Below are positions 11,865 to 39,515 of a DNA stretch of 43,880 nucleotides, in pieces. The position numbers were made by a program, and so were the translations under genes. This stretch comes from Iphinoe sp. HA4291-MV1 (GTDB lineage Bacteria; Cyanobacteriota; Cyanobacteriia; Cyanobacteriales; Nostocaceae), in assembly GCA_019359415.1 (NCBI GenBank), contig JAHHHH010000064.1:1-43880 (forward strand). The letters are read 5' to 3'. The notes under the pieces were generated by a model. That model did no database searches, was not told the DNA's origin, and was given only the letters and a program-made list of their open reading frames with translations. Position 1 is the first letter of the stretch, and every line of letters begins with the position of its first letter.

Positions 11865-11871
11865 AACTATA

Positions 11872-12720
11872 GTGCATCTCAAGAATTTTTCACTGTTGTC
11901 TCCAAGTATACACAGTAGCGATTTACTGAAGGTGATTGAGACAGCGATACCTGCGACGGCAATTGAGGAGGCGATCGCCACTACACAGGTTGATGAGGAA
12001 CGAAAGCGGTCGTTACCAGCGCAATTGGTTGTAAGTCTTGTAATAGCTATGAGTTTATGGTCGAGAGATTCGATGCGCGATGTGCTGAAAAATCTCATAG
12101 ATGGTCTATCGGAGACATGGGTTAAGGTTGGTAAATATTGGCGAGTGCCGTGTAAATCAGCCATCACACAAGCCAGGCAGCGATTGGGAGCAAGAGTGAT
12201 GAGCCAATTGTTTCATCAGTTGGTACGACCAATGGCAACTGATGAAACATTGGGGGCATTTCTAAATGGACTACGAATTGTAGTCATTGATGGTACCTGT
12301 TTTGATGTTCCAGACAGCGATGAAAATGCAAGAGTTTTTGGTCGTCCTAGTAGTCGTCCTAAGACACAAGCAGCATTTCCAAAAGTACGATAGGTAATTT
12401 TGGTTGAGGCTGGGACACACTTAATCTTCGATGCATTGATGTGTCCATATCGTATCGGAGAACGAGTACGGGCACTAAGATTATTACGCTCGGTAACATC
12501 AGGGATGCTGTTGATGTGGGACAGAGGCTTACATTCCTATGCAATGGTCAACGCCACTGTTACTAAAGCGTGCGATTATTTGGGAAGGATACCCGCTAAC
12601 GTTAAATTCCTTACAGAAAAACCGTTGGCAGACGGCTCATATTTATCGTGGATCTACCCATCGCTTAAGCTACGAAAAAAGCGATTTTTTATCAGTCTAC
12701 CCGGTCACGGTTCTGGACGA
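11872..12720 (+). pseudogene. IS4-family transposase, interrupted by a stop codon and 3' truncated
   Basis: From a GTG at 11872 (VHLKNFSLLSPS) the frame shows the IS4 N-terminal domain (LLKVIETAIPATAIEEAI, then LPAQLVVSLVIAMSLW). The DDE core begins with VVIDGTCFDVPDS. The frame stops at TAG 12391-12393 and resumes in the same frame with VILVEAGTHLIFDALM and LLMWDRGLHSY, the second catalytic Asp region. A single base change (for example TTG to TAG) would explain the stop. The homologous region fades after YPSLKLRKK, at about 12680, where the convergent peptidase gene begins (12723), so the third catalytic acidic residue and the right end are lost. An earlier in-frame ATG at 11761 precedes the family homology. 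Confidence 0.8.
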
Positions 12721-15475: not shown

Positions 15476-16798
15476 TCAGACTTCATCTGTGGTTGGAACT
15501 GAGTCGGCTAATGCATCCGGCAGTTCATCTTCCACCAGCCGCAGAGGCGGATACATATAGCCCGCAACTGTTGCCAACACGGTGAGCACTCCCATAACGA
15601 CAAATAACAAAGCAATACCGTGTCCTGGCCCCACACCGAGCAATCGTCCAATACTTCCAGCTAGTGGTCCGTCGATAGCAAGCAGAGGCTCGAAGAAATG
15701 GTCAGCTAATGGTCCTGCAACTAAGTAGGCAAGTGGCAGGGAACTCCAGACTATCATTCGTCGCACAGCAAAAACCCGTCCTTGTACATCGGGTGCGACT
15801 TTGGTTTGCCAAATGACTTGACTAGAACCGTTGATAATCGGTACGGTGAAGAAGTAGAGGAAGCCAGTAAAAAAGAAGACCGGGACAGAGGGCCGTAGAC
15901 CAGCAAGTAAAATACACAGCCCACCTAACAGTGAGAAGCTCAACACGGCGTAAATAGGGCGTTTTACACCGCCCCAGATGCTCATGACCAGACTGCCAAC
16001 CAGCATACCGCTACCAGCAAAAGACAGTAAGGTACCAAGCATGGCAACAGAAGTGAAAGCCAGCACCAATGGTGTAACCAACACGCTGACAACTCCCGTC
16101 AGGAAATTGCTGCCAGCGAAGAAAATCAACAATCCAAACAGCCCTGGTTGTGCGGTTATGTAGATCCAGCCGTAGATTGCCTCGCGCCACAGCGAGCCTG
16201 TCCCCTCTTTACCCTCAAGGGTGATCTTGGCTTCAGGAAACCGTACAAACAACAAGGTAACGAGGGAGAAAACAAAAGTGGCAACGTCAATAAAGATTAC
16301 GCCCTGAAGCTGAATCGTAACGACCAGTCCCCCCGCCAGCACTGGTGAGAGAAGCTCCGCTGCCGCCTCTGCTGCTTGTACCATGCCACTGGCGCGACCG
16401 AGGTGTTTTTTGGGAACAAGCTGCGTGGTAGCGGCAGCATAAGCTGGCCACTGGAAGGCTTTGAAGGCAGAGCTGGTTGCGATCACCAGGTAGATGTGCC
16501 AGACTTCCAGCCTGCCAGCCAAGAGTAGGAGTGCTATCACCAATGTGCTGATGCCTGCTCCGGAGTCGCTAAGGAGCATCGCCCAACGTCGGTTCCAACG
16601 GTCAACAAGCGCGCCAGCCAGTGGTGATATCAGAATATGGGGCAGCGTAGTGAACAGTGAAATCAGCGTAAACTGCGTTACCGATCCAGTGCGCTGGTAC
16701 ACCCATATACCCAGCGCGAAGCTGGTGAGTCCGGAGCCGATGAGCGAGATTAGTTGCCCAAACCAGATAAGAATAAAAACCTGTACTTTACTAGTCAT
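15476..16798 (-). CDS. MFS exporter, probable lipopeptide efflux
   Basis: 440 residues with about twelve membrane helices and the typical internal repeat. The N-terminal half has the loop 2-3 signature GALVDRWNRRWAMLLSD. The protein resembles the MFS_3 / EntS group that exports siderophores and peptide products in cyanobacteria. It begins 15 bases after the stop of the reductase-ending synthetase, so it is co-transcribed and its cargo is probably the product of this pathway. The acidic, hydrophilic C-terminal tail (EDELPDALADS) is unremarkable. No ABC exporter is present in the window. Confidence 0.85.
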   Translation of the reverse strand: MTSKVQVFILIWFGQLISLIGSGLTSFALGIWVYQRTGSVTQFTLISLFTTLPHILISPLAGALVDRWNRRWAMLLSDSGAGISTLVIALLLLAGRLEVWHIYLVIATSSAFKAFQWPAYAAATTQLVPKKHLGRASGMVQAAEAAAELLSPVLAGGLVVTIQLQGVIFIDVATFVFSLVTLLFVRFPEAKITLEGKEGTGSLWREAIYGWIYITAQPGLFGLLIFFAGSNFLTGVVSVLVTPLVLAFTSVAMLGTLLSFAGSGMLVGSLVMSIWGGVKRPIYAVLSFSLLGGLCILLAGLRPSVPVFFFTGFLYFFTVPIINGSSQVIWQTKVAPDVQGRVFAVRRMIVWSSLPLAYLVAGPLADHFFEPLLAIDGPLAGSIGRLLGVGPGHGIALLFVVMGVLTVLATVAGYMYPPLRLVEDELPDALADSVPTTDEV

Positions 16799-16813: not shown

Positions 16814-19800
16814 TTATAGCTCGCTAACTGGATGCTCCGTATCCAAGAAACCAATACGAGTGAAATAGGAGAAGTAGGTGTCAAGCAATTGATCATTGAT
16901 TGGTGGACAAACGATGGAAGTACCTGCAAGTCCATCTAACGTGTTCTGGCAGTCAAACTGTACACTGCTAAATTCATCAGATATCAGCTCCTTGAATGTC
17001 TTTTCAGAAAACAGAGGAAGAAGTGAATAAGCTGCATTTTCCGAGGAGTGATCGGCGATGCTAATCAATTCTGCTCGCCACTTATCAGGCAAAATCTGCT
17101 TGAGCGGGTAGCTACGGGCGCGTATCCAATCAACAAGCTTGCTCATATGGATGGGGTGGGGATTGAATAAGTGAAAAGCCTTACCTATCGATTCTGGCTG
17201 CAGCGATAGATGAACAATTGCTTTGCTTACATAATCTACAGGGGTCATGCCCCACCTAACATCTAAGTCTGGGGCACTTCCCACCTGAATACAAGCTTTA
17301 ATCATTCTCCACAAAAAGTCATCTGTTTGACAAGCACCTGTTTGGCTATCTCCTGATATTCTTTCTGGTCTATAGATGCAGACAGGAAGACCACGGGAAC
17401 GTGCAGTCATCACTAGTTTTTCAGCAACCCACTTGCTTGCCGTATACCCAAATCTGGAACCTTTGTAACTGTATTCGAGATTGTCCTGCTCTTGGATTAT
17501 AGTGCCTGCGGGATGGCTAACAAACTGGAAAACAGAGATAGTGGAAATGTGATGTACAGGCTTCACCTTGGTTTGACATGCCAATTTAAGAACCTCTTGG
17601 GTTCCTAAAACATTGGCCGCTTTGAGTACAGAGTACGGATAGATATGATTTGTAGACGCACCATTGTGATAAATTACATCAATTTCGCTTGCCATCATTT
17701 GAAATTGCTTTGCTGAAAGACCTAAGAGTGGCTGAGATAAATCTCCTACAACTGGGATGATTCTGGAACTCAAATCTTCTTGCCAGAGTGAATATAATTC
17801 TAGATTTCTTTGAATCTTCTTCTTAGCTTCCTCAGCATTGAGTGAACGTACCAAACAATAAATGTGCGCCTGAGTTTGCTCAAGGAGTTCATGGAGTAAA
17901 AAAGCTCCCAGAAAGCCTGTGGCTCCAGTCAAGAAGATAGAAGATGCGGTTATATGCTCAACAGCTACAGCTTCTGGATAAATTGTGGGTTCCAAGATAG
18001 TTTCAGCATTGATGTCAGCGATTTCAATAATGTCAGTTACAGCGCCAGTGTCCGTGCGACCAAGAACTTCGATAGCTTGGGCAATACCAGCTACAGTAGG
18101 TGTCTCAAAAAAACATTGTAGAGGTAAATCTACTTGAAAGACCTCGCGCAGTTGGAAAACAATCTGGGTAACCAACAAGGAGTGTCCACCTAAATCAAAG
18201 AAGTTGTCATGCACCCCCACTTTGTCAATGCGGAACGCTTCAGCCCAGATTCGCGCCACCGTTTCTTCAGTGTGGTTGCGAGGAGCCACAAAAGTTTTCT
18301 CTAGCTCAGGTCTAGCCTGAGTAGGAGCTGGAAGTGCGCGGCGGTCTATCTTGCCGCTGGCCGTCAGCGGCAGGGCATCTAACGTCACAAAGGCAGAGGG
18401 AACCATGTACTCAGGTAATTTCTCCTTGAGGAAACTACGCAGTTCTTCGACTGTGAGCGGCTGCTCCTGATTTGGCACAACATATGCCACTAGGCGTTTG
18501 TCACCAAGGTCATCCTCCCGTGCTACAACTACAGTTTCTCGCACTCTGGGATCTTGTGCCAGCACTGTCTCGATTTCACCTAGTTCGATACGGAAACCAC
18601 GGATTTTCACTTGCTGGTCAATGCGACCTAAAAACTCAAGCTTTCCATTGGGTAAGTAGCGAGCTAAATCTCCAGTCTTGTAAAGGCGTGAACCTGGCTC
18701 ATTGCTGAAGGGGTTTGGAATGAACTTCAAAGCGGTTAGATTGGGTTGGTTGAGGTAGCCTAGGGCTAGCCCGACTCCGCCAATGTGCAGCTCGCCCGGT
18801 ACGCCAATAGGTACTGGTTGCAGATGCGGATCTAGTAGATAGATTTGCGTGTTGGCGATCGGGTGACCGATATAAATCAAGTCGTCCTCAAACGTAACTT
18901 CATAAACAGCCGACCAAATAGTAGTTTCGGTAGGACCGTACATATTCCACAGTGAAGCTCCTCTTTCTAATAACTGACGAGCTAGCTTCTGAGGTAGAGC
19001 TTCTCCACCGCAGAGGATTTTCAGCCTTTGACTGCCATGCCACTCAGCATTCAAAAGTAACTGCCAAGTCGCAGGAGTTCCTTGCATAACAGTAGCACCA
19101 GATTTAACTAAATAATCTGATAGTTGTAAACCGTCCGACGCAATTTCACGACTTACTAGTACTAAACAACCTCCTAGACTAATGGGTAAGAATATTTCTA
19201 GAACTGCAATATCAAAAGACACACTGGTAGTACCAAGAAAAATATCTTGATTAGTTAATCCTAGATGTTCACACATAGACATGAGGAAGTTAACTACTGA
19301 CCGATTGAGAACTTGTACCCCTTTAGGTTGACCTGTAGATCCTGAAGTATAAATGACGTAAGCCAAGTTCTCTGCCGTAGTACTGTCACTGGGAAAATTC
19401 GACTCAGAGCAAGTGGCGATTTTACTCCAATCAGTATCTAAATAGACTACCTGAGTATTATGTTTCGGGATTTGCAAGTATTGTTGAGTCAACATCACCG
19501 AAACTTGGGCATCGCCGAGTATATAAGCAAGTCGCTCTGGAGGATAATTCGGATCGAGAGGGATATAAGCTCCACCAGCTTTCAGAATTCCTAACAGCCC
19601 AACGACCATTTCCAATGAACGTTCCACACAAATACCTACCAGTGTCTCTGCTCCCACCCCCAGTGTCTTTAGGTAGTGTGCTAGTTGATTGGCACGAGCA
19701 TTCAATTCTCTATAGGTAAGTTGTTGGTTCTCAAACACCACCGCCACTGCTTCTGGTGTGCGCTCTACCTGCTCCTCAAATAGCTGATAGATACATTTAT

Positions 19801-22800
19801 CTTGAGGATACTGGGTTTGGGTATCATTCCACTCCACCAAAAGTTGATGCTTTTCCTCAGCAGAAAGCAGATTCTGCAATTCATAGCATTCATCTGGATC
19901 GTTGGCCATTTGTGTGAAAATTCTGAGGTAATATCCCGCAATGGCTTCTAGCTGCTCATCACAGAAATCGCTAGTTTGAACGTCTAGGTAAAGCGTCAGT
20001 TCTGACGTGAAAGAATCTAAAACAAAGTAAGCACTCAATGGGAAAAATGTCTGGTCTGATTTGTTACGAAAATCTAAAAGCTCTATTTCACTAAACCCTT
20101 CAAGGCTTTGATAAATGTGGAAATTGATAAAGTTAAATATCGTCTCGAACCAAAGCTGACGACCATTGTGTCGGTGCAATTCGGCAAGAGGATATCGTCG
20201 GTGGGGCAATAAATCACATTCTGCCTCGAAAGTGGCTTTTACCAAATCTAGCCAGGTGCCACCTCCAAACTTTAGGCGTAAGGGCAAAAAGTTCAGGAAA
20301 AGACCGAGAACTCGATCGCCATCTTCTGCTTCTGGGCGACCATTCACTAACAAACCTGTAACTACATCTGATTGACCGCTAAGTAAACCAATAACTCTAA
20401 GATGTCCAGCTAGCAGGACGCTCTTGAGGGGAACACTAGTACGGCTGGCTAAGTTTTTTAATCCCTCTAATACCTCTGTGGCAATGGGAACAGGAACCCG
20501 AAAAGGAAGAGTCTTGGGCTTTTGAGTATTTTGAGTACTCCTAGCAGGCCAGTGTGCTAACACCGTAGGATTACAGTCCATCAGCTTTTGAGTCCAGAAC
20601 TGCTTGCTTTGATCAGATTTGAGAGCCATACGCTCCAGCGCGACAAAATCTCTATAAGAAGTTTTAGGTGATGCTTCAACAATAGGAGTTTGCCCACGCA
20701 AAAAAGCAATGTAGTGGTGGGCTAGTTCAGTTAGCATTGAGGCTGAACTCCAGCCATCAAGAAAAAGATAGCTAAAGGTGAGCTGAAAAGTTTCTTCGCT
20801 AAGGCAGTGAACGTAGAAGCGTACAAAAGGATGACTTCCCCAGTCGAACTTTCGTCTTTTTTCTGTTTCTAACCAAGCATTCAGTAAATTTTCTTGTTCA
20901 GTGAAATCAAGATGTCGCAGATCGTCTACTTGTAAGGGAATGATAGATGTCCGATGCACTAACTGTAACGGTTCGCTGAAATTAGCTAGATCGAATGAAG
21001 TACGGAGTATGGCATGGCGATTCACAAGTAGTTGCAAAGCCTGCCGGAAACTTTCAGGCTCAAAGCGACCTCGCAAGCGAACGCTCTGAATATAAACTTC
21101 TTCGTAGTTTGAACCAGAACCGGACTGCAAACGAATGTTCTGATTATGAACTTCGTAGTTTGAACCAGATTCAAGGTGAAAAATCACTCCCGCTTGGAGC
21201 ATGGAAAGAGGGTAGGCATCTTCCACATCATCGGGCAGTTTCTTTCGATCCTCATTAAAGATCAGGCCAAATAGTTCTGTCTTCAATCTAGATAAAAGTT
21301 CAGGCTTCACTACTATGAGGTTTTGAGCTAACTCATGAATTGTTTGATATTGAAACAGTTGTTGGAGGGAGAATTCTAAACCCATTTTCTGAGCTTGAGC
21401 TTGAACCTGAATACCGCGAATGGAGTCTCCCCCGATATCAAAGAAGTTGTCATAAATACCTACTTGCCTGATACTTAGCACATTAACCCAAATATTGGCT
21501 AGCATTTCTTCTATAGGTGTTCGGGGAGCTACAAAACTAGCTGTCAATTGTTGCGCTACTTCAGGTGCTTTTAAGGCGCGGCGATCTAGTTTTCCATTGG
21601 GGGTCAAAGGGAGCGCATCTAAGTACACGAAAGCAGCTGGCACCATATATTCTGGTAACTTCTGTTTCAAGAATTGTCGCAAGTCGCTAATACTGGGGTT
21701 GTGCTCGGCATCGCTGACGAGATAGGCTACTAAGCGTTTATCATCTGGTGTATCTTCTCTCTTGATTACCGTCACCTGCTGCACGTGAGGGTATTGGCTC
21801 AATACTGCTTCAATCTCACCCAACTCAATCCGAAAACCGCGAATTTTGACTTGGTTGTCAATCCGACCGATATACTCAATATTGCCATCGCTTAAGTAGC
21901 GAGCTAAGTCCCCTGTTTTGTATAGTCGTGATTGTGGGTCATCACTAAAGGGATTAGGGATGAATTTCTCTGCTGTAAGTTGGGGACGGTTGAGATAGCC
22001 TCTGGCTAAACCAGCGCCGCCAATGTGTAACTCTCCAGGCACACCAATTGGTGTTGGTTGTTTTTTGGAGTCAAGGATATAGATTTGAGTGTTGCTTAGG
22101 GGGTGACCGATGGGAACAGTTGAAGATTGTCGAGTATCAGGCACTCCTTCGACTTGGTAAGTAAGAACTCCTACCGTAGTTTCAGTCGGTCCGTAGTGAT
22201 TGATAATCTGAGATTCTGGAGCTAGTTGTTGAATTTGTTTGATTAACTCCCAACTAGTTGATTCTCCACCAAGAACTAAACGCTGAGGTGTCAAAATTTG
22301 CGAGCCAGCCTCTGATGTTAACAACGCTCTTAGATGGGAGGGAACAATCTTAAGACAATCGATTGAATTGGAGTGGAAGTAATCGGCCAGACCTTTGGCA
22401 TTAGTGATTCGCTCCGAAGAGATTATATGCAGACATCCGCCACTACACAAGGAAGGGAAGATAACAGTATGACCCAAGTCTGCTGCTATGGTAGAAACTA
22501 TCGCATAATTGGCATCAGCAGGAAGATTAAGTACGGTTTGAATGCTGTTGAGATAGTTAAACAATTGCCGATGTTCGATCGCTACACCTTTAGGCAACCC
22601 AGTAGAACCAGAAGTGTAAATGACATAAGCTAGATTTTCTGGTTTTACCTGAGTGTTGGGATTGTCGTTGGCTTCGTGAGCTATTTTCTCCCAATCAGTG
22701 TCGAGGTGGATAACATTAACTTGACAATTAGTCAGATTTTTTTGTAGCTTCTGTTGAGTCAATAATACTGAAACTTGGGCATCTTGCAGCATATAGACTA

Positions 22801-24451
22801 AACGCTCTGATAAATCATTGGGATCTAGGGGTAGATAAGCTCCACCAGCTTTGAGTACTGCCAATAGACCTATCACCATATCCAGAGAGCGTTCTACATA
22901 GATACCTACCAGTGTCTCTGCTCCTACTCCTAAGGTTTTGAGATAGTGCGCCAATTGATTAGCACGATTGTTCAATTCCCTGTAAATCAGTTGCTGGTTC
23001 TCAAACACTACTGCCACTGCTTCTGGAGTACGTTCTACTTGCTCTTCAAACAACTGGTGAATGCACTTTTCTTGGGGATAGTCGATTTTCGGATCATTGA
23101 ATTCAATCAGCAATCGTTGTCGTTCGCGATCGCTACACATTTCTAAATCGGCGATCGCTTCATCTGGATGATTGATCGCGCTTTCGAGTAAAGTCAGGTA
23201 TTGTTCTGAAAGGATTTGGATGTTTTTGAGGGGAAATAAGTTGGAATCATAATGAAACTCAAGCAACAAGCGATCGTCTCTACAAACCCCAGAAAGTTTT
23301 ACTCTAAAGCGATCAATACAAGTGTATTGGTTGTAGACAGAAAATATGATGTCATCAACAACACAATTTGTAGACTGTTCTTGAAAATCAAAACAAAAAG
23401 GAAAAAAGGGTGGCTCTGTCCCATTTCCATTCTTAGCGGCAACTTCCTCCCAGCTAAAATATTCTTGCCATTTGTTACCGTAGCTTAAAGTTTCCTCAAC
23501 TTTTTTGAGTAGTTCTCGAAAGCGAAGATTTTCTTCAAGATAGGAATGGATGGGTAGATACTTAGTCAATAATCCTAAGACATCTTCTAATTCTGGATAT
23601 TTACGTCCATCGCTGGCAGTGCCGACAACAATATCTGACTGTTCGGTGAAACGCCAGAGTTGAATTTGCCAGCAAGCTAGTAAGAAAACAGAAATCGAAG
23701 TGTCATACTTGCTCGCAAGCATTTCTAACTTTGTTACTGTATCGGAATTAATTTCTAGTGTTAGAGATTGAGGTTCAAATCGTACTTTGGCAGATGAGTG
23801 ATTTTCTAAAGGGATTTTCCAACTTAAAGCAGAAAAAACATCTCGCTGCCAATACTTTCTTCCTATTTCTGTGTCCTCTGATTCCAATAATTCATTTAGC
23901 CATGCAGATATATCCGCGTACTGCATCGATTCATCAGAAAGTTCTCTACCATGCAAGTATGCTCCATAAGAATGACAGATTTCTTTGACCAAATTATGAA
24001 GTGTTAATAGATCGGCGCAAACGGCAGGTAAGCTGATAAATAAGATCTGCTCACATGATGACAGCTTGCTTAAGACTGTATATAAAAGAGGTTCTTTTCC
24101 AAAATCGAAAGTTTGCCATCTTCTATCTTGAAAAAGTGCGTCGATCTCAATCTTTTGTTCTTGGGAAGTCAAACTGCTTAGATCGCGTTCTTCAAACATT
24201 AGCATACTGTTTTCAGTTACGAACTGAAGCGGAATTGACATTTCAGGCAAGCAATTGAAAACGGTACGAAGAATTTCTTGTCTCTTAATGATGTTTTCTA
24301 AGACAGCTTTTAAAATTTCTGGAGCAAAATTTTCCTGAATACGTATAGCAATTTGAGAATAATAAGCCTGAGAGCGATCGCTTTGCTGTAAAACCCAGAG
24401 ATGCTTCTGCTGAGGTGAAATACGAAACCCATTGCCAATTGTACTTTGCAT
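16814..24451 (-). CDS. NRPS, two modules with terminal reductase: C*-A(Asp)-PCP-C-A(Gly)-PCP-R
   Basis: About 2545 residues from the ATG at 24451, which has AAGGA 9 bases upstream; the TTG at 24511 lacks a good site. Rough order: C-like domain 5-435, A1 455-965, PCP1 985-1055 (GGDSIRG), C2 1085-1510, A2 1530-2030, PCP2 2050-2120 (GGHSLLV), reductase 2165-2520. The C-like domain has LPAVCAD where HHxxxDG should be. C2 has SYLFLDG. The A1 pocket reads DLTKVGHVGK, one conservative change from the Asp code DLTKVGHIGK. A2 reads DILQLGMIWK, matching the cyanobacterial Gly code except Leu to Met. The reductase shows TGATGFLG for NADPH and YTASK as catalytic Tyr/Lys, so release should give an aldehyde or alcohol. 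Specificities are inferred from motif alignment by eye. Confidence 0.9.
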   Translation of the reverse strand: MQSTIGNGFRISPQQKHLWVLQQSDRSQAYYSQIAIRIQENFAPEILKAVLENIIKRQEILRTVFNCLPEMSIPLQFVTENSMLMFEERDLSSLTSQEQKIEIDALFQDRRWQTFDFGKEPLLYTVLSKLSSCEQILFISLPAVCADLLTLHNLVKEICHSYGAYLHGRELSDESMQYADISAWLNELLESEDTEIGRKYWQRDVFSALSWKIPLENHSSAKVRFEPQSLTLEINSDTVTKLEMLASKYDTSISVFLLACWQIQLWRFTEQSDIVVGTASDGRKYPELEDVLGLLTKYLPIHSYLEENLRFRELLKKVEETLSYGNKWQEYFSWEEVAAKNGNGTEPPFFPFCFDFQEQSTNCVVDDIIFSVYNQYTCIDRFRVKLSGVCRDDRLLLEFHYDSNLFPLKNIQILSEQYLTLLESAINHPDEAIADLEMCSDRERQRLLIEFNDPKIDYPQEKCIHQLFEEQVERTPEAVAVVFENQQLIYRELNNRANQLAHYLKTLGVGAETLVGIYVERSLDMVIGLLAVLKAGGAYLPLDPNDLSERLVYMLQDAQVSVLLTQQKLQKNLTNCQVNVIHLDTDWEKIAHEANDNPNTQVKPENLAYVIYTSGSTGLPKGVAIEHRQLFNYLNSIQTVLNLPADANYAIVSTIAADLGHTVIFPSLCSGGCLHIISSERITNAKGLADYFHSNSIDCLKIVPSHLRALLTSEAGSQILTPQRLVLGGESTSWELIKQIQQLAPESQIINHYGPTETTVGVLTYQVEGVPDTRQSSTVPIGHPLSNTQIYILDSKKQPTPIGVPGELHIGGAGLARGYLNRPQLTAEKFIPNPFSDDPQSRLYKTGDLARYLSDGNIEYIGRIDNQVKIRGFRIELGEIEAVLSQYPHVQQVTVIKREDTPDDKRLVAYLVSDAEHNPSISDLRQFLKQKLPEYMVPAAFVYLDALPLTPNGKLDRRALKAPEVAQQLTASFVAPRTPIEEMLANIWVNVLSIRQVGIYDNFFDIGGDSIRGIQVQAQAQKMGLEFSLQQLFQYQTIHELAQNLIVVKPELLSRLKTELFGLIFNEDRKKLPDDVEDAYPLSMLQAGVIFHLESGSNYEVHNQNIRLQSGSGSNYEEVYIQSVRLRGRFEPESFRQALQLLVNRHAILRTSFDLANFSEPLQLVHRTSIIPLQVDDLRHLDFTEQENLLNAWLETEKRRKFDWGSHPFVRFYVHCLSEETFQLTFSYLFLDGWSSASMLTELAHHYIAFLRGQTPIVEASPKTSYRDFVALERMALKSDQSKQFWTQKLMDCNPTVLAHWPARSTQNTQKPKTLPFRVPVPIATEVLEGLKNLASRTSVPLKSVLLAGHLRVIGLLSGQSDVVTGLLVNGRPEAEDGDRVLGLFLNFLPLRLKFGGGTWLDLVKATFEAECDLLPHRRYPLAELHRHNGRQLWFETIFNFINFHIYQSLEGFSEIELLDFRNKSDQTFFPLSAYFVLDSFTSELTLYLDVQTSDFCDEQLEAIAGYYLRIFTQMANDPDECYELQNLLSAEEKHQLLVEWNDTQTQYPQDKCIYQLFEEQVERTPEAVAVVFENQQLTYRELNARANQLAHYLKTLGVGAETLVGICVERSLEMVVGLLGILKAGGAYIPLDPNYPPERLAYILGDAQVSVMLTQQYLQIPKHNTQVVYLDTDWSKIATCSESNFPSDSTTAENLAYVIYTSGSTGQPKGVQVLNRSVVNFLMSMCEHLGLTNQDIFLGTTSVSFDIAVLEIFLPISLGGCLVLVSREIASDGLQLSDYLVKSGATVMQGTPATWQLLLNAEWHGSQRLKILCGGEALPQKLARQLLERGASLWNMYGPTETTIWSAVYEVTFEDDLIYIGHPIANTQIYLLDPHLQPVPIGVPGELHIGGVGLALGYLNQPNLTALKFIPNPFSNEPGSRLYKTGDLARYLPNGKLEFLGRIDQQVKIRGFRIELGEIETVLAQDPRVRETVVVAREDDLGDKRLVAYVVPNQEQPLTVEELRSFLKEKLPEYMVPSAFVTLDALPLTASGKIDRRALPAPTQARPELEKTFVAPRNHTEETVARIWAEAFRIDKVGVHDNFFDLGGHSLLVTQIVFQLREVFQVDLPLQCFFETPTVAGIAQAIEVLGRTDTGAVTDIIEIADINAETILEPTIYPEAVAVEHITASSIFLTGATGFLGAFLLHELLEQTQAHIYCLVRSLNAEEAKKKIQRNLELYSLWQEDLSSRIIPVVGDLSQPLLGLSAKQFQMMASEIDVIYHNGASTNHIYPYSVLKAANVLGTQEVLKLACQTKVKPVHHISTISVFQFVSHPAGTIIQEQDNLEYSYKGSRFGYTASKWVAEKLVMTARSRGLPVCIYRPERISGDSQTGACQTDDFLWRMIKACIQVGSAPDLDVRWGMTPVDYVSKAIVHLSLQPESIGKAFHLFNPHPIHMSKLVDWIRARSYPLKQILPDKWRAELISIADHSSENAAYSLLPLFSEKTFKELISDEFSSVQFDCQNTLDGLAGTSIVCPPINDQLLDTYFSYFTRIGFLDTEHPVSEL
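21078..21169 (-). repeat. Tandem in-frame duplication at the start of the second C domain
   Basis: A 19-bp identical stretch recurs at an offset of exactly 51 bp (21100-21118 and 21151-21169). Flanking bases are about 80% alike, with one extra codon in one unit. In protein it doubles a GSNYE...RLQ segment just before the usual 'R-L-R-G' strand of the C domain, adding 17 residues without a frameshift. Confidence 0.75.
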
Positions 24452-24643
24452 ATATCTACGTCCTTTTTCTCCTAAAAATGTTTCCAATTTAACAAACTTC
24501 GGCGGGTTCAAGTCCCCGGCTACAAGAGAAGCCGCAAGTATGTGTTTGCTCTTGTCTTTATAAGAGTTACAAAACTGTACTTTCTCTCTTCGTAGCGGTA
24601 GCGAGTCCGCGAGCGTCCTTCCGACTTCCGACTTCCGACTTCT
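24452..24643. other. Intergenic spacer with TTCCGAC heptamer repeats
   Basis: The only sizeable gap inside the NRPS operon separates the oxygenase stop from the synthetase start. It carries three tandem TTCCGAC units at about 24619-24641 and a GTAGCGGTAGCGAGTCCGCG stretch, both typical of cyanobacterial short tandemly repeated repetitive sequences. No terminator is seen. An extra promoter here cannot be excluded. Confidence 0.55.
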
Positions 24644-25675
24644 TTAACAAGTTTCAGACATACCTACCAAAACCTTTCTGCTGCCGATAAAAGGCATACG
24701 TCCATGAGCAGCTAACATATTGTCCAGCAACAAAATATCTCCTTTCTGCCAGGGAAAAATCACACTTTCCTGTTGATAGACCTGATTAATTTTTTCGATT
24801 ACTGAGGGTTCAATAGGAGAACCATCGCCGTAATAAGAATTGCGTGGAATAGCATTTTCTGTCAGCGAAGAGAGTAATGATTCCTGTATCTCCGTTTCCA
24901 AACTGGAAATGTGAAACAAATGAGCTTGGTTGAACCAAACCATTTCACCTGTATAAGAATGTTTGGCAACAGTCTGGCAAACTTGACGGGTTGTTAGGCG
25001 ATCCTTTATCCATTCAAATTCAATGCCCAATTTACGGCAAAAACTTTCTAATTCTGATTTATTTGTGGTTTGAAAAACATCTTGCCAGGACAAATCTAAA
25101 TCGCCGTAGTTGCGAACATACATCACCTTCTTTTGCATAAACTTTTCTTTGATGGCAGAATCGAGTCTGGCAAAAACTCTTCGACTGTCAGCAATCGGTG
25201 TTTCTCCACCTTCTTCGGCAGGCTGGACGCAGAAAAAACAAATTTTCATCGGCCAAACGGAAGAATAAGAGTTTTCATTATGGAGAGGGATTGATTGGTT
25301 GGAAGGATATTCAGTTGAGGTATAGATTTTACCGTTTATCTGAGTGCGTGGAGTTGAACGATAATTATACTCTACTAATTCTCCTCTAGAAATTGCCTGA
25401 ATGAATTCCTGGAATTCTTGCACTCCATTGATATTAAAATTCCGAAAAAGTATACCTCCATAATTTAGTAAATGAGCTTCAATCAAATCCCGATTTTTTT
25501 CAGACCATGCGACTAAACTTACTCCATCTATAATGGGTGAAATAACTAAAGGAAGAAAGTTGTCAGAGTAAAGAAACTTTTCTTCGATTAATTTTTCTCG
25601 ATCTCGATCAATTGGCTTTCGCTGAGCCTTACGTAACTTATTGATCCTGTTTTCTTCGGTTTCTGGGATTTTCAT
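24644..25675 (-). CDS. Fe(II)/2-oxoglutarate oxygenase, SyrP-like aspartyl beta-hydroxylase candidate
   Basis: 343 residues of the TauD/clavaminate-synthase fold. The metal triad is visible: His132 and Glu134 in LHNENSY and His324 in AAHGRMPF, with Arg333 as likely 2-oxoglutarate anchor. HxE rather than HxD is usual for amino-acid beta-hydroxylases that act on carrier-bound substrates. The ATG overlaps the stop of the stand-alone C gene (ATGA), and the next gene starts with an Asp-specific module, so hydroxylation of Asp on its PCP is the natural reading. SyrP and related enzymes do this in syringomycin and several siderophores. The substrate is inferred from context; asparagine in the previous module is the main alternative. 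Confidence 0.85.
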   Translation of the reverse strand: MKIPETEENRINKLRKAQRKPIDRDREKLIEEKFLYSDNFLPLVISPIIDGVSLVAWSEKNRDLIEAHLLNYGGILFRNFNINGVQEFQEFIQAISRGELVEYNYRSTPRTQINGKIYTSTEYPSNQSIPLHNENSYSSVWPMKICFFCVQPAEEGGETPIADSRRVFARLDSAIKEKFMQKKVMYVRNYGDLDLSWQDVFQTTNKSELESFCRKLGIEFEWIKDRLTTRQVCQTVAKHSYTGEMVWFNQAHLFHISSLETEIQESLLSSLTENAIPRNSYYGDGSPIEPSVIEKINQVYQQESVIFPWQKGDILLLDNMLAAHGRMPFIGSRKVLVGMSETC

Positions 25676-27237
25676 AATTTGTTCTGAAGTTCAGTTGAAT
25701 TTTTCAAGCTACGTCTGTGGAATTTGTTTAGTTTCTGAATGGCAACGTCTTGGAGTTCTTTTTCTTTTACCAATTGTCTTTGTCTGTCTGCCTCATGAAG
25801 TATTTCTTTGATGGTGTTCAATCTGATTTTAGGAGCTACTACGATTTGATTCAAAAGTGTCTGGAAATGTCCTAAAAATCGTGCGATAGTAGCAGATTCA
25901 AACAGGTCTGTATTGTATTGCAACGAGCCAAATAATCCCGTTTTTGCCTCCTCCATATGTAAGAGAAGATCGAATTTTGCCGTTTCGCTATCGACCTCTA
26001 TCAGATTTATATTTAGCTCCGAAAGCTCTATATCTGATATCGGGGTATTTTGGAGAACGAATTTTATCTGAAACAGAGGGGTTCGACTCGGATCTCGCTC
26101 TGATTTCATCGCTCCCACCAGCATTTCAAATGGCAGATCTTGGTGAGTATAAGCCTCTAGTGCCACCTCACGAATTCGTCCTAATAATTCTTGAAAGGTA
26201 GGATTGCCAGTGAGATCGGCTCGCAAGACTAGCTGGTTAGCAAAGAAACCGATTAATTTCTCAATCTCAGCCCGATTGCGGTTAGCTACATCAGTACCTA
26301 CAACTATATCTTCCTGCCCAGTGTAGTAATACAGTAAACTTGTAAATGTTGCAAATAGCGTCACGAACAAAGTGACTCCCTCTTGACGACTTAGCGTTTT
26401 AAGTTCCTCAGTCAAAGTCTTTGATAGTTGCAGAGATTGACTCGATCCTCGAAACGTCTGCACTGCTGAACGAGGGCGGTCGCTGGGTAACTCTAACACA
26501 GCTGGTGCGCCAGCCAGTTGTTTTTGCCAGTAGCTAAGTTGATTTTGTAGTTCTTCTCCCTGCAACCACTGACGTTGCCACACTGCAAAGTCTACATACT
26601 GAATCGGTAATTCCGGCAGAGGCGAGGGCTTGTCTTGCACAAATGCACAGTAGAGAGCGGCTATCTCTTGGATGAACACTCCCTTCGACCAACCATCAGA
26701 GATAATATGATGCATCGTCAGTAACAAGACATGTTCGCTATCTGATAATGCCAGTAGTGTACCTCTGAGTAAGTGGTCTGTTGCCAGATCAAAAGGCTTG
26801 GCTGCTTCTGCGGCGGCTAAGCGTTGAATTTCGCTTTCTCGCTCACTTGCTGGCAGAGTTTGTAAGTCAATTGTGGTCATTTGCCAATCACAAGCTGGAT
26901 GAATGATTTGTATTGCTTCCCCATCTTGTTTGATAAAGTTAGTGCGTAAGGCTTCATGGCGACGAATAATTTCACTTATGCTTTGTTCGAGAGTTGTCGG
27001 CTGTAACTTTCCTTCTATTCTGATGGCGGCGGGGATGTTGTAGGCAGTACTATCTGGCTCTAATTGGTCGAGAAACCACAATCGTTGTTGAGCAAAGGAA
27101 AGAGGAAAAGTGTTAGTCTCTCGTGTGACGGGGGTAATTTGGATTGGCGAAACTTTCTGTTGTTTGTGCAGTCGCCGCATTAAAAGTTCGCGTTTTTCTA
27201 GTGAAAGATTGGCGATGCGTTGTGAAAGGTCAGTCAT
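25672..27237 (-). CDS. Stand-alone NRPS condensation domain protein
   Basis: 521 residues with a single C domain of LCL-like type. The first motif is PLSFAQQRLWFLDQL and the catalytic HHIISDG is at about 176-182, so it should form peptide bonds. There is no A or PCP domain. The N-terminal ~40 residues look like a docking helix (LSQRIANLSLEKRELLMRRL), and a matching helical region ends the upstream synthetase. The C-terminal ~60 residues are basic and helical. It lies between a C-A-PCP protein and the oxygenase, and the next synthetase begins with a C-like domain lacking its active site. This protein therefore probably supplies the missing condensation activity for the Asp module. The gap to the upstream gene is 23 bases, with an AGGA ribosome-binding site. 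Confidence 0.9.
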   Translation of the reverse strand: MTDLSQRIANLSLEKRELLMRRLHKQQKVSPIQITPVTRETNTFPLSFAQQRLWFLDQLEPDSTAYNIPAAIRIEGKLQPTTLEQSISEIIRRHEALRTNFIKQDGEAIQIIHPACDWQMTTIDLQTLPASERESEIQRLAAAEAAKPFDLATDHLLRGTLLALSDSEHVLLLTMHHIISDGWSKGVFIQEIAALYCAFVQDKPSPLPELPIQYVDFAVWQRQWLQGEELQNQLSYWQKQLAGAPAVLELPSDRPRSAVQTFRGSSQSLQLSKTLTEELKTLSRQEGVTLFVTLFATFTSLLYYYTGQEDIVVGTDVANRNRAEIEKLIGFFANQLVLRADLTGNPTFQELLGRIREVALEAYTHQDLPFEMLVGAMKSERDPSRTPLFQIKFVLQNTPISDIELSELNINLIEVDSETAKFDLLLHMEEAKTGLFGSLQYNTDLFESATIARFLGHFQTLLNQIVVAPKIRLNTIKEILHEADRQRQLVKEKELQDVAIQKLNKFHRRSLKNSTELQNKL

Positions 27238-27260: not shown

Positions 27261-30200
27261 CTACTTTTCTGTGGAGAGAATTTTTTGCACTTCGTCGTTG
27301 GATAGTTGCTCTAGTTCTGCCAACATATCAAGAAGCTTCTGGTTATCTACTTGCTCAACTTGTTTGTCTACAATTTGTACAGCCAAGTCTGCGATCATGG
27401 GTGCTTCAAACAAACTGCGTAGGGATAGTTCTACTTGGAAGGTTTTCTGTACCCGAGAAATTAACTGCGTAGCGAGCAGAGAATGTCCCCCCAACTCGAA
27501 AAAGTTGTCATCAATACTTACTTGCTTGACCTCTAGAATTTCAGCCCAAATCTGTGCCAGCATCTCCTCTACAGAGTTGCGGGGTGCAACAAAAGTTCTT
27601 GCCCACTCTGGTCTAGTGTTGTCGGGTATAGGAAGTTGGTGACGATTAATTTTGCCATTGGGTGTCAGTGGCAATGTTTCCAGGAATACAAAGGCAGAGG
27701 GCACCATATAATCTGGTAGCCGTTCTTTGAGGAAACTACGCAATTCGCTGACCGTGGGTGCCTGCTCCTGGTTCGGGACGACATAGGTCACCAGGCGCTT
27801 GTCGCCGGGTACGTCCTCCCGAGCCATAACCACAGTCGCTCGCACAGCCGGGTGTTGAGCCAGCACTGCCTCGATCTCTCCCAGCTCAATGCGGAAACCC
27901 CGAATTTTCACTTGATGGTCGATGCGTCCTATGTATTCAATATTGCCATCTGCTAAGTAGCGTACTGAATCTCCAGTTTTGTAGAGGCGCGAATACAGCT
28001 CAGTGCTAAAGGGATTGGGGATGAATTTTTCTTGTGTCAACTCTGGACGGTTGAGGTAGCCTCTTGCTAACCCAACACCAGCAATATGTAACTCTCCTGG
28101 TACACCCACAGGTACTGGTTGTAAGTACGAGTCTAGGATGTAGATTTGCGTGTTGGCTATTGGTCGCCCAATCAAAATCCCTTGTGCTAGTGAAGTCTCA
28201 TTTTTCACTTCGTAGAAGGAGCAGCCAACAACTGTTTCGGTTGGACCGTATTCATTGATTAGTCGGGTGTTTGGGGCGTTTTGTCTCCAGAAGTGGAGGG
28301 TTTTGCCAAAAAGGGGTTCACCACCAATGACTAATGCTTTGGTTTGTGCTGCGGCTTCTTGAGAGGGGAGTAGTTGGTTGAGTAATTCCAGATGGGCTGG
28401 TGTGAGCTTGACTAAGCTAAACCGGCGCAATTGCAAAACGACACAGAGGGCTTCAATTTCTTGCTGTTCTGGGAGGAGAATGACTTGTTTTCCGACTATT
28501 AATGGCGAGAAGAGGCTGGTAATGGTGGCATCAAAGGCAAAGGAAGACTGCACGGGTGCGCCATCGCCATCGGCGACAGCATAAGCCTGGGTACACCAAC
28601 TGAGATAATTGACGACCCCTTGGTGCAGAATCATTGTCCCTTTAGGTCTACCTGTAGAACCGGAGGTATAAATCACATAAGCCAAGTTAGTTGCTTGCAC
28701 ATCAGTGATTGGATTATTTTGAGGAGACTGAGAAATAAGCAGCCAGTCAGTATCCAAGCAGACAAGCTGCGCTTGATGCTGTGGAAGCCTGTCAACCAAT
28801 CGCTGTTGAGTCAGCAGCACCGAAACTTGAGCATCTTCGAGCATAAAGCTCAACCGACCGGTGGGATACTCCGGGTCAAGCGGCACATAAGCCCCACCCG
28901 CCTTGAGAATTCCCAGCAGTCCCACCACCATATCCAATGAGCGTTCCACACAAATGCCCACCAGCACATCTGCTCCCACACCCAAAGACTTGAGGTAGTG
29001 CGCCAACTGGTTAGCACGACTATTCAACTGGTGGTAAGTAAGTTGTTGATTTTCAAACACGACTGCTACAGCATTTGGAGTGCGCTGAACTTGCTCCTCA
29101 AACAACTGATGGATACATTTATCTAGTGGATAATCCACCTGCGTATCATTCCACTCAACGAGTAACTGCCGTTGCTCAACCTCTGTCAGCAAAGGCAATT
29201 GGGAAATTTGTTGCTGTGGATTGGCAACAATACCTTCTAGCAAGGTCTGAAAATGCCCCGCCATCCGCCGGATGGTGCTGGCATCAAACAAGTCTGTGTT
29301 GTACTCCAACCAACCTTTAATTCCGTTCGCTGTCTCCTCCAGGTCGAGTGTCAAATCAAACTTCGCCGTCCCATTGTCAACCTCTAGCGGACTCAATTTC
29401 AGACCAGAAAATTCCAGGGAGGGCATGGGAGCGTTTTGAAGGGCAAACATTACCTGAAACAGGGGCGTGTGGCTCAGATCCCGCTCTACTTGCAGGGTTT
29501 CTACCAGCTTCTCGAAGGGTAGATCCTGGTGGTTATAAGCTTCCAGAACCACCTTGCGCACCCGACCAAGCAGTTCTCTAAAGGTGGGGTTGCCTCCCAA
29601 GTTAGTACGCAGTACAAGCGAATTGATGAAAAACCCGATCAAATCCTCTGTTTCTACTTGATTGCGATTGGCAACAGGAGATCCTACAAGAATGTCTTGT
29701 TGCCCTGTATAGCGGTAAAGCAGTATTTTGAAAGCTGTCAGCACAGTCATGAACAAAGTTGTTCCTTCTTGCTGACTCAGGTCTGCGATCGCTTCCAATA
29801 AGGACTTTGACAACTGCAATGCTTGCCTTGCCCCATGAAAGGTCTGAACCGCCGGTCGTGGTCGGTCAGTGGGCAATTGTAGTATGGGGAGACTACCACC
29901 AAGTTGCTGCTTCCAGTAGCTCAGTTGTGTTTCTATGACTTCCCCTTGCAGCCACTGCCGTTGCCAAACAGCATAGTCTGCGTACTGAATGGGGAGTTGA
30001 GGCAGAAGTGTCGGTCTACTGTTGGCGAAGGCATCGTAAAGTGTTGCCAACTCCCGCACCAACACGCCAAGGGACCAACCATCGGAGACAATATGATGCA
30101 TTGTCAGCAAGAGTGTATGCTCTTGTTCCGCTAGGCGTAGGAGTTTGGCACGCAACAGTGGACCTCGTTTCAAATCGAAAGGCTGTTGGGCTTCCTGTGC

Positions 30201-30632
30201 AGCTAGCTGTAAGGTTTGGGCTTCCCGGTTGCTTTTAGGCAACTGTTGCAAATCTACTATCGGCAGCACGAAAGAAGGGGCAGAGTGAATCACCTGAACT
30301 GGTTGCTCATCCACAGTCATAAATGTGGTTCGCAAGACTTCATGACGCTGCACGATTTTGTTGAGACTCTGTTCTAATGTTGCTGCGTTCAGGCGTCCTT
30401 CTATGTGTATTGCAACCGGGATGTTGTAAGCTGAGCTTCTAGGTTGTAGCTGGTCGAGAAACCACAACTGCTGCTGGGCAAAGGAAAGAGGTACTTCGTC
30501 TAAGTTTTTTATCTTAGAAATTTTTGATGTCTCGTCTAGTTCAACACCTTCCTCTGCAAGTAGGTACGCCAGAAGTTCACGCTGTTGTGCGGAAAGCCCA
30601 GTTTTGTTTGTTGAGTCTTTAATATCTTTCAT
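27261..30632 (-). CDS. NRPS single module C-A-PCP, Asn-like specificity
   Basis: 1123 residues. An N-terminal docking-like helix (1-40) leads to a C domain about 45-480 with intact HHIVSDG at 179-185, an A domain about 500-1000 and a PCP around 1025-1095 (GGHSLLA). A short helical C-terminal tail (LLDMLAELEQLSNDEVQ) is probably the docking element for the next protein. The A-domain pocket reads DATKVGEVGK, close to the Asn signature DLTKxGEVGK with Leu to Ala at the second site, so Asn or a related polar residue is likely. The ATG overlaps the stop of the FAAL synthetase (ATGA), giving coupled translation. No epimerase or methyltransferase domain is inserted. Confidence 0.9.
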   Translation of the reverse strand: MKDIKDSTNKTGLSAQQRELLAYLLAEEGVELDETSKISKIKNLDEVPLSFAQQQLWFLDQLQPRSSAYNIPVAIHIEGRLNAATLEQSLNKIVQRHEVLRTTFMTVDEQPVQVIHSAPSFVLPIVDLQQLPKSNREAQTLQLAAQEAQQPFDLKRGPLLRAKLLRLAEQEHTLLLTMHHIVSDGWSLGVLVRELATLYDAFANSRPTLLPQLPIQYADYAVWQRQWLQGEVIETQLSYWKQQLGGSLPILQLPTDRPRPAVQTFHGARQALQLSKSLLEAIADLSQQEGTTLFMTVLTAFKILLYRYTGQQDILVGSPVANRNQVETEDLIGFFINSLVLRTNLGGNPTFRELLGRVRKVVLEAYNHQDLPFEKLVETLQVERDLSHTPLFQVMFALQNAPMPSLEFSGLKLSPLEVDNGTAKFDLTLDLEETANGIKGWLEYNTDLFDASTIRRMAGHFQTLLEGIVANPQQQISQLPLLTEVEQRQLLVEWNDTQVDYPLDKCIHQLFEEQVQRTPNAVAVVFENQQLTYHQLNSRANQLAHYLKSLGVGADVLVGICVERSLDMVVGLLGILKAGGAYVPLDPEYPTGRLSFMLEDAQVSVLLTQQRLVDRLPQHQAQLVCLDTDWLLISQSPQNNPITDVQATNLAYVIYTSGSTGRPKGTMILHQGVVNYLSWCTQAYAVADGDGAPVQSSFAFDATITSLFSPLIVGKQVILLPEQQEIEALCVVLQLRRFSLVKLTPAHLELLNQLLPSQEAAAQTKALVIGGEPLFGKTLHFWRQNAPNTRLINEYGPTETVVGCSFYEVKNETSLAQGILIGRPIANTQIYILDSYLQPVPVGVPGELHIAGVGLARGYLNRPELTQEKFIPNPFSTELYSRLYKTGDSVRYLADGNIEYIGRIDHQVKIRGFRIELGEIEAVLAQHPAVRATVVMAREDVPGDKRLVTYVVPNQEQAPTVSELRSFLKERLPDYMVPSAFVFLETLPLTPNGKINRHQLPIPDNTRPEWARTFVAPRNSVEEMLAQIWAEILEVKQVSIDDNFFELGGHSLLATQLISRVQKTFQVELSLRSLFEAPMIADLAVQIVDKQVEQVDNQKLLDMLAELEQLSNDEVQKILSTEK

Positions 30633-33600
30633 ATTTCAACTCTTTCCCCTTTCTTCTGCTGAAGCGTTATTTTTACGTCTTGGGTGGACATAGCTGTAAT
30701 TTTCAAAAAAATCACAGCTATCTTTTCCATTTGTCCTGGTTTTGTTTCGCGAGCAATCAAAATTTGTGATAACTTTGCTACGGTTGCAGCCTCAAAAAGA
30801 CTGTGTAAAGGCAGTTCTACCCGGAAAAGGTCTCGTATTCTGGAAATAACTTGAATCGCAAGCAGCGAGTGTCCCCCTAACTCAAAGAAATTATCGTGAA
30901 TGCCAACGCGCTCAAGTTGCAAAATTTCACTCCATATCATGGCTAGGGCTTCTTCTAACCCGGTAGTTGGAGGAACATAAGTTCCGGTTTGTTCAAAGCT
31001 TGCAATGTCCGGTGCTGGGAGGGCACGATAGTCTAATTTGCCATTTGGTGTCCGTGGCATTTGCGGTAGGGTGACAAAAGTACCAGGAATCATGTAGTCG
31101 GGCAAATAGCTAGATAAGTAAGTGCGTAAACTTTTAACGGAGAATTGCTGATGATAGGGGTATTCGCCAACGGATGGCCAAAATTCAATCTGTTGGTGGC
31201 GTTGTTTGGGTACTAGGTAAGCGAGTAAGCGCTTGCAAGAAGCATCATTACTCGTGTCATCCTGTACGACGACAGCTACGTCCTCAACACTTGGGTGACG
31301 GCGCAAGATTACTTCGATTTCACCCAATTCTAGACGAAAGCCCCGCACCTTAACCTGGTCGTCAAGACGACCGAGAAATTCGATGTTACCATCTGGTAAA
31401 TACAGAGCTAAGTCACCAGTTTTGTAAAGGTATGCCCCTCGTTCATCACTAAAGGGATGGGGAATAAATTTCTCTGCAGTCAGATCAGGACGGTTCAAGT
31501 AGCCACGCGCCAAACCGGCACCGCCAACGTACAATTCACCCGGTACACCGACAGGAACAGGTTGTAAATGCTCGTCTAGGATGTAAACTTGCTGGTTGGC
31601 AATTGGGCGACCAATGGAGATAATTGACGAGTGGCGATCGCACACCCAGTACGTGGCATCAATGGATACTTCTGATGGGCCATAACAGTTGTGGAGTTCT
31701 ACACTACTCAGGAGGGCAAAAAAGCGATCGCGAACTTCTAGGGGTAAGGCTTCACCACCGCAGGTGACATAGCGAAGTGAGATACAACCTTCTAAGCCTG
31801 GTTGCTCCAGAACTAGTTGGAGCATGGCAGGAACAAAATCCACAAGCGTTATTTGCTGTTGAGCCATCACCTTGACAAGATAGCTGGGGTCTTGATGACC
31901 ACCGGGTCGTGCCATAACCAAGCGAGATCCAGACAACAACGCCCCAAACATTTCCCAGACCGACACATCGAAACTAAACGAAGTTTTCTGTAGCACGCGG
32001 TCGTTAGAAGTTAATTGATAACGAATGGTACCAGAAACAAGACGATTAACAATCCCTTTGTGGGGAATCATCACGCCTTTCGGTTGCCCAGTGGAGCCGG
32101 AGGTGTAGATTATGTAGGCAAGGTTAACGGGGATAACAGCCCCAGTTGGGTTGTCTGCACTTTCTTGGGCAATGATTTCCCAGTCTGCATCCAGGCAAAT
32201 AACCTTGGCTCTGTGTTTCGGCAAACTGGCGACAAGGTTTTGTTGGGTCAACAGGATTGTCGCCTGAGTGTCCTCTAACATGAAGGCAAGGCGTTCTTTT
32301 GGATACGTTGGGTCGAGGGGCACGTATGCGCCGCCAGCTTTGAGAATACCCAGTACCCCTACCACCATCTCCAAGGAGCGCTCCATGCAAATCCCCACCA
32401 GCACGTCTGGTTCCACACCAAGTGACTGTAGGTGATGCGCTAGTTGATTAGCTCGAATGTTCAGATCGCGGTAGGTTAGTTGTTCGTTTTCAAAGACCAC
32501 CGCAATGGCATCAGGGGTTTGCTCCACCTGAGTTGTAAATAGCTCGTGGATGCATTGCTCAATTTTGGATTTTGGATTTTGGATTTTGGATTGATTCTGG
32601 TTGAACTCCGCAAGCAGTTGATACAGTTCTGCTGGCGGTAACATGGACAATTCTGAGAGTTCCTGGTTTGGATTGGCAACAATACTCTCTAGCAAAGTTT
32701 GGAAATGACTTGCCATCCGGGTGATAGTGGCAGCATCAAATAAGTCAGTGTTGTACTCTAAGGATGCCGCAAGTTCTCCGTCCACTTCCGCCATCATCAG
32801 TGTCAAATCGAACTGAGCTACCCGCTGTTCCAGTGCTACGGACTCCATCTCCAGTTCACCGAGATGCATTCGTGCTCCAGCCACGCCTAAAGCAAAGGAT
32901 GCTAAGCTTTCAAGCTTTTGCAGATGCGCTTTCTCCAATACAAACATGGTTTGGAACAGTGGCGATCGACTCGGATCTCGTACTGGTTGCAGTCGCTCTA
33001 CCAACAATGCAAAGGGGTAGTCTTGATGTTCAAAAGCATTTAGCACGGTCTGTTTCACTTGACCAAGAAATGCCTCAAAATTTGGGTTCCCTGAAAGATC
33101 CGCTCGTAAAACGACCGGATTGACGAAATACCCTACCAGATCTGCCAAATCAGCACGACTCCGCCCCGCAGTTGGCGAGCCTACTAAAATATCTTTTTGA
33201 CCTGTATAGCGGGACAGAAGCACCTGATAGACTGCCAACAAGGTCATATAGAGGGTGGCTCCTTGAGCGCGGCTCAGTGCCTTAAGTTTCTGTGTTAGCT
33301 CCGCATTCAGCTTAAAGGGCACAGTTGCCCCTCGATAGGTTTGAACTGCTGGTCGAGGTCGCTCAGTGTGTAAATTTAATACTGGTAACTCACCTGTTAG
33401 TTGCCGCTGCCAGTATGCCCAAAGCCTATCTCCTTCTGGACTTGCTAGCATTTGTGCTTGCCACCGAGAATGATCGGCGTACTGTAGCGCCAGTGTGGGG
33501 AAAAATACGGGGATGCCATTCTTTTGCGCTTGGTACAGCATTCCCAGTTCCTGTACAAACACTGCTAAAGACCAAAAGTCGCTAACGATGTGGTGTACAG

Positions 33601-36118: not shown

Positions 36119-36246
36119 TAGCCCCTCTGGCTTGTTATAAGTAAGCATTAGTAAAGTGAGAATATTTGTACAACAACAAGCCAATGTCAAATGGAGTTAA
36201 ATTTACGTAGTAAAAACATATGTTTGTTTGATTGCATAATATTTAT

Positions 36247-39479: not shown

Positions 39480-39515
39480 TCCACTCCTCCACACTTTACA
39501 GCAATTACACTCGAT

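Follow-up and report, generated by a model that had tools for sequence, protein, structure and literature searches.

A predicted aspartyl beta-hydroxylase and a candidate interface domain in a cyanobacterial lipopeptide-type synthetase cluster

How is aspartate joined to a chain and modified when the condensation (C)-like domain in front of its module lacks an intact HHxxxDG motif? The question is raised by a nonribosomal peptide synthetase (NRPS) cluster in the 43,880-nt stretch of DNA analysed here (the window), which is contig C79, positions 1-43880, of a 7.36 Mb genome; its best-matching named relatives are cyanobacteria. A stand-alone C protein, a TauD-type oxygenase and a terminal synthetase follow one another on the minus strand, and we read them as part of a short lipopeptide line in which a separate enzyme, docked on a non-catalytic interface domain, would very probably hydroxylate Asp. 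This confidence applies to the core formed by hydroxylase, interface domain and Asp; we are less certain of the Gly and release steps. With A, T and R standing for adenylation, thiolation and thioester reductase domains, the features that carry this reading are:

25672..27237, minus strand: stand-alone C protein, 521 aa, single Condensation domain with HHIISDG (Pfam, motif)
24644..25675, minus strand: TauD-type Fe(II)/2-oxoglutarate oxygenase, 343 aa, predicted trans-acting aspartyl beta-hydroxylase (Pfam TauD)
16814..24451, minus strand: terminal synthetase, 2545 aa from the ATG at 24451, with interface-type C-like, A(Asp), T, C (HH lost), A(Gly), T and R domains (domain scan, codes)
23126..24427, minus strand: interface-type C-like domain (profile scan, tree, neighbourhood)
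24011..24031, minus strand: LPAVCAD at the HHxxxDG site of the C-like domain (motif)
21572..23050, minus strand: A domain with the Asp code DLTKVGHVG (alignment-derived code)
21320..21514, minus strand: T domain of the Asp module, proposed to carry Asp during hydroxylation (profile scan)

The LPAVCAD domain, the oxygenase and the stand-alone C protein

An earlier note, made from the sequence letters, had described a stand-alone C protein with HHIISDG, a TauD-type oxygenase and an LPAVCAD-bearing C-like domain ahead of an A domain with an Asp code, and all of these were found where it had placed them. The C-like domain belongs to the Pfam Condensation family, and its HHxxxDG motif is not intact. 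In the 93 domains of this kind, itself included, the motif has P or S in 93/93, D in 93/93, A in 80 and a leading L in 77; judged from these alignments, LPAVCAD is not a chance reading.

A C-superfamily tree was built from 87 domains, namely the required rows and a random part, thinned by similarity, of 425 domains; it was a quick tree without bootstrap, its groups being named by motif and context. The C-like domain fell inside a set of 27 rows (SH-aLRT 96) consisting of 26 domains that lie directly after a hydroxylase and one, L080, that lies after a hydroxylase fragment. Rows L108 and L135 stand at the base of this set, L135 on a long branch. The epimerisation (E) group, the D-specific/HHAILDG group and the L-specific group were all placed outside it. 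Pfam does assign the domain to Condensation, as it would a starter, D-specific or epimerisation domain of the ordinary kind whose motif had decayed, but such an origin is scarcely credible: it is contradicted by the tree, which rules out the starter, D-specific, L-specific and epimerisation types, and the motif is common to 92 other domains. The earlier note had proposed the interface type and had named grouping with starter or epimerising C domains as the result that would speak against it; no such grouping was seen.

Interface domains are reportedly (Reitz et al. 2019, PNAS) non-condensing members of the C superfamily, said to position a beta-hydroxylase and a carrier-bound residue. The domain adjoins the beta-hydroxylase and precedes an Asp A domain, in the position expected of an interface domain, whose A domain should be for Asp or His. 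Its identification as an interface domain is thus well supported, its likeness to the domains of that paper being drawn through the relatives found here rather than through the paper's own named reference sequences. None of the 40 PDB sequences that it matched is named an interface domain, and a literature search with one spelling of the motif plus 'condensation' gave no match. An interface-domain profile is included in antiSMASH 8, according to excerpts of PMC12230676.

The A-domain codes were extracted by alignment, with reference columns set by hand on the window domain. Cyanochelin B, a compound of solved structure whose modules were assigned by gene order, served for calibration: DLTKIGHVG is the code of both its beta-OH-Asp modules and DILQLGLIW that of both its Gly modules. 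By this comparison the codes of the terminal synthetase, DLTKVGHVG and DILQLGMIW, are read as Asp and Gly, and the Asp-like code of the earlier note is borne out. The form DLTK.GH.G was found in 44/80 A domains that follow an interface domain vs 19/199 other A domains. The same genome holds further hydroxylase/interface clusters on contigs C94 and C112 (L015, L018, L019), and TonB receptors occur on those contigs. The interface module on C94 has the code DSALIAEVW, as do interface modules to a total of 14/80; we take this code to be His-like.

The oxygenase has the features of TauD/SyrP-like enzymes: membership of the TauD family and an HxD/E...H iron site with an Arg. The HxE-type site that had been noticed earlier corresponds to H132, E134, H324 and R333 (HxE...H...R), which are invariant in 14 aligned sequences, that of the window included. 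Its partner A domain selects Asp, judged by the code alone as calibrated on cyanochelin B. The enzyme is therefore predicted to be a trans-acting aspartyl beta-hydroxylase, Asp being its presumed substrate.

In a hydroxylase tree of 99 of 129 sequences, the window enzyme shares a large, weakly supported part with CcsK of the cyanochelin B cluster (L009). Five hydroxylases that precede a C domain with HH (Pseudomonas L133, Vibrio L021, Janthinobacterium L022, Methylomagnum L023 and Nitrospirae L147) form a set of their own (SH-aLRT 99), with the window enzyme outside. Neighbourhood and tree together rule out that the window oxygenase is of this stand-alone type. The proteobacterial stand-alone set is presumably TBH_Asp. 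Two cyanobacterial hydroxylase clades, CyanoBH_Asp1 and CyanoBH_Asp2, have already been named from cyanochelin clusters, as stated in the available part of PMC12971057.

The stand-alone C protein (P0003) was placed in the group of ordinary L-specific C domains of the 87-row tree, and the suggestion that the C domain serving the Asp module sits on a separate polypeptide is supported. An uncut C-only frame precedes the hydroxylase in 13 other sampled loci, some of which are close kin or possibly draft-assembly splits. This count starts from 17 C-bearing upstream frames shorter than 620 aa, window included, from which L088 and L094, cut by the locus edge, and L109, an edge-cut A-T-C, were set aside.

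Pairing of hydroxylases and interface-type domains

Loci surrounding a relative of either the oxygenase or the synthetase were collected from plasmids and genomes, and their domains were annotated with profiles built from the window. The 112 scanned loci (window, L009-L023, L054-L149) gave 131 hydroxylase domains, 94 stand-alone and 37 fused, in 107 loci; these counts are not independent, since some loci seem to have been fetched twice from the same genomic place (e.g. L071 and L099). A C-like domain comes next after 85 of the 94 stand-alone hydroxylases, and it is without HH in 75 of those 85. For the fused enzymes a C-like domain comes next in 31/37, always without HH (31/31). On the other side, the upstream neighbour of the stand-alone enzyme is an HH C domain in 73 of the 77 cases with an upstream domain.

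Counted by module, TauD lies immediately upstream of 93/98 C-A modules with a residue other than H at the first motif position vs 7/157 modules with H, a comparison biased by the choice of loci, most of which were taken around TauD genes. The second C domain of the window's terminal synthetase is one of the five exceptions among the 98.

A reverse search used the interface domain itself as query and is therefore a test free of the hydroxylase-centred choice. At E 1e-60 or better, 35 of 148 genomes of the order matched. TauD was found within 1.5 kb upstream in 26 of the 30 returned loci, which include the window and three places already present in the first sample (L199, L203, L204).

The pairing of hydroxylase and interface domain is systematic. 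In the sampled cyanobacterial clusters a stand-alone hydroxylase usually has an interface-type domain after it, and the split form of the window, with C, hydroxylase and interface-A-T as three pieces, would make a handy test bed for the role of the interface domain.

Several observations weigh against the proposed line. Nine of the 94 stand-alone hydroxylases precede an ordinary HH C domain (Vibrio, Janthinobacterium, Methylomagnum, four from Pseudomonas and two from Nitrospirota); these, with one C-like domain of unreadable motif (L131), make up the other 10 of the 85. Five more directly precede an A domain, and four precede nothing readable. Because of the nine enzymes, the earlier statement that stand-alone hydroxylases act through an interface domain is imprecise: 'stand-alone' does not always mean working through such a domain. 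In the reverse search, four of the 30 interface loci were without a hydroxylase in the upstream 1.5 kb, three having an HH C domain there (L195, L211, L221) and one (L213) nothing recognised. Within the window, the code of the first A domain of the line, DVWDTGCID, matches no nameable substrate. The second C domain of the terminal synthetase reads SYLFLDG, both histidines of HHxxxDG being gone; because of this loss both the transfer to Gly and the release by the R domain that depends on it may be impaired.

Two smaller groups of loci were recorded beside these counts. An A domain follows a stand-alone hydroxylase, no full-length C-like domain being recognised between them, in L103, L105, L111 (Acidobacteriota), L134 and L137. 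Interface-type modules with a C domain but no hydroxylase immediately upstream occur in L058, L098, L141, L195, L211 and L221; a hydroxylase encoded at another place may serve them.

The second C domain and the proposed pathway

The loss of the histidines from the second C domain had been missed by the earlier note. The features concerned are:

19874..21229, minus strand: second C domain, HHxxxDG histidines gone (motif, tree, homologue alignment)
20753-20773, minus strand: SYLFLDG at the HHxxxDG site of this domain (motif)
21100..21169, minus strand: 51-bp in-frame tandem duplication in this domain (exact 19-nt copies at 21151-21169 and 21100-21118)
18332..19780, minus strand: A domain with the Gly code DILQLGMIW (alignment-derived code)
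18074..18274, minus strand: T domain of the Gly module (profile scan)
16844..17959, minus strand: R domain (Pfam, TIGR01746, profile scan)

The domain was compared with 30 homologues: the best match of each of 29 other genomes that returned a locus, 291 genomes of the order having been searched, and one from the window's own genome. HH is kept in 29 of the 30, the remaining one (L163) having HT, and none of the 30 shares the loss. The alignment showed two residues also missing at or beside SYLFLDG. The duplication lies near the N-terminus of the domain; 19 nt of it are exact and the rest has diverged. Sequencing error is thought an unlikely source of the change, as judged from the assembled sequence, because the change spans several codons and leaves the frame open.

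These observations raise the possibility that the pathway is partly dead: with an inactive C domain in the terminal C-A-T-R module, synthesis would stall at hydroxy-Asp or yield no released product. Of 95 positions that 90% or more of the homologues conserve, the domain loses 14 and keeps 81, vs 0 to 11 of 82-87 lost by the homologues when each was left out in turn, over slightly different sets of columns. The missing histidines and the duplication point the same way, as does the same-genus relative G007, in which a thioesterase closes the cluster at this point. Against it, the 2545-codon frame is open throughout, and by eye the other C motifs, the Gly code and the R domain appear intact. In the tree the domain falls in the HHAILDG group on a branch of 0.47, no longer than its four sisters (0.27-0.56). 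Activity is not lost in every case when the second histidine is mutated, according to the portion of a review (PMC11546977) available. On balance we regard a partly dead pathway as less likely than not.

If the line does work, the terminal synthetase would have two modules and no canonical condensation centre. Either the stand-alone C protein, the sole one past the Asn-like module whose motif is intact, would act in trans twice, to Asp and then to Gly, or the second C domain would condense in a histidine-free manner; to this pair of solutions we give little credence. A histidine-free C domain of this kind is a natural test of the need for HHxxxDG in condensation.

In transcription order on the minus strand the cluster reads FAAL-T-C-A-T, C-A-T, stand-alone C, TauD oxygenase, C-like-A-T-C-A-T-R and MFS transporter, FAAL standing for fatty acyl-AMP ligase. 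The proteins at its two ends are:

30629..36190, minus strand: loading subunit with FAAL, T, C (HHIVSDF), A (code DVWDTGCID) and T (domain/profile search, motif, code)
27261..30632, minus strand: C (HHIVSDG), A (code DATKVGEVG) and T (domain search, motif, code)
15476..16798, minus strand: MFS transporter, possible exporter (domain search)

In the pathway that we propose, a fatty acid would be activated and loaded by FAAL-T and two residues added, the second Asn/Asp-like, since we take DATKVGEVG to be a code of that kind. The separate C protein would join the chain to Asp. Asp, while bound to its T domain in the terminal synthetase, would be beta-hydroxylated by the separate TauD-type enzyme, docked on the interface domain with which that synthetase opens and which does not itself condense. 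The Gly module would come next, and the R domain would release the product as an aldehyde or alcohol, the latter with an ethanolamine end as in cyanochelin B. The domain order, motifs, codes, tree position and conserved neighbourhood were read directly; on them we base the docking, the timing of hydroxylation, the substrates and the product. L-Asp is expected because no epimerase follows, and a 3R hydroxyl is a guess by analogy, taken from the rule for self-standing enzymes quoted from Reitz et al. in the accessible text of PMC12628792.

The product may be a siderophore of the cyanochelin type, as its hydroxylase type, Asp and Gly-reductase ending would suggest; we hold this as possible but doubtful. 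The cluster has a single hydroxylase and a single interface-Asp module, and no PF00593 (TonB receptor) match was found on contig C79, within the limits set by the contig ends. Contigs C94 and C112, which carry the other strong hydroxylase matches of the genome, each have such a receptor. Moreover, turnercyclamycin is a beta-OH-Asp lipopeptide and not a metallophore, as reported in the same excerpt of PMC12971057.

Known systems and the surroundings of the cluster

The split C domain together with a reductase ending had been put forward as an undescribed combination. This did not hold: it is already described in essence, because the cyanochelin B cluster (Leptolyngbya sp. NIES-3755, AP017310; PMC12628792, available in part) differs in this respect only in that its C domain is not a separate protein, and a stand-alone C occurs in the 13 other loci mentioned above. 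That cluster also starts with FAAL. The part of PMC12628792 at hand describes the Asp beta-hydroxylase CcsK as self-standing and placed ahead of the Asp module CcsL, with a Gly module in the last gene and presumed reductive release to ethanolamine; the word 'interface' is absent from its main text as available. Our scan of AP017310 showed an HH C domain ending the protein before the stand-alone CcsK, which is 56% identical to the window oxygenase, and CcsL opening with an interface-type domain (NLPSLCAD) followed by A(Asp)-T; a Gly module with R comes after it.

The cyanochelin B cluster differs from the window in that its C domain ends a longer synthetase, its Asp module carries an epimerase, and it has polyketide synthase (PKS) modules and, in fused form, a second hydroxylase; a ferric receptor is annotated next to it. 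The window, in turn, has the C domain as a separate protein, the Asp and Gly modules on one chain, and a second C domain without histidines. For this exact split form no paper was found in the literature searched, which did not take in Reitz 2019 or Galica 2021.

The same-genus genome G007 (contig C232, loci L054 and L055) has a closely similar cassette: C, hydroxylase and interface-A(Asp)-T are 74, 82 and 80% identical, and the same ATGA overlap is found, in the window between the stop of the C protein and the start of the oxygenase. An MFS-like frame lies downstream there as well, by eye. In G007, however, the C domain (the partner in the 74% match) is fused to the C-terminus of a longer upstream synthetase, the Asp module ends in a thioesterase (Pfam), and a second, fused hydroxylase lies further upstream. 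The upstream modules of the two clusters are about 54% identical at best. The cassette is thus common to the two relatives and is followed by different modules, the G007 cluster having a thioesterase at that place, which may reflect a module exchange.

Locus L065 of genome G008, one of the 13 loci with a stand-alone C, likewise has a stand-alone C, a stand-alone hydroxylase and interface-A-T, then C-A-T-R; unlike in the window, its C-A-T-R is a separate protein with an intact HHIISDG, and the codes are DLTKIGEVG and DVGEVGSID. The C / hydroxylase / interface-A-T cassette is common to relatives whose neighbouring modules differ. The fatuamide cluster, as far as the available part of PMC11877528 describes it, is alike in that a C domain closes FatQ and the stand-alone TauD-type FatR, a predicted Asp hydroxylase, comes next; it is a salicylate-primed PKS/NRPS system, likened here by description only.

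The open reading frame of the terminal synthetase spans 16814-24511, and its start is probably the ATG at 24451 because this matches the start in G007. The gap between oxygenase and synthetase (24452-24643, 192 bp) holds short iterated repeats of the GTCGGAA type; the matching gap in G007 is 36 bp. Upstream of the cluster, at 36363-43603 of the window, lie a TPS-domain protein and then phage-like genes (terminase, tail morphogenesis) with a DNA cytosine methylase. Downstream of it, matches of the group II intron maturase type and of the IS4 transposase N-terminal type occur at 133-783 and 11761-12393.

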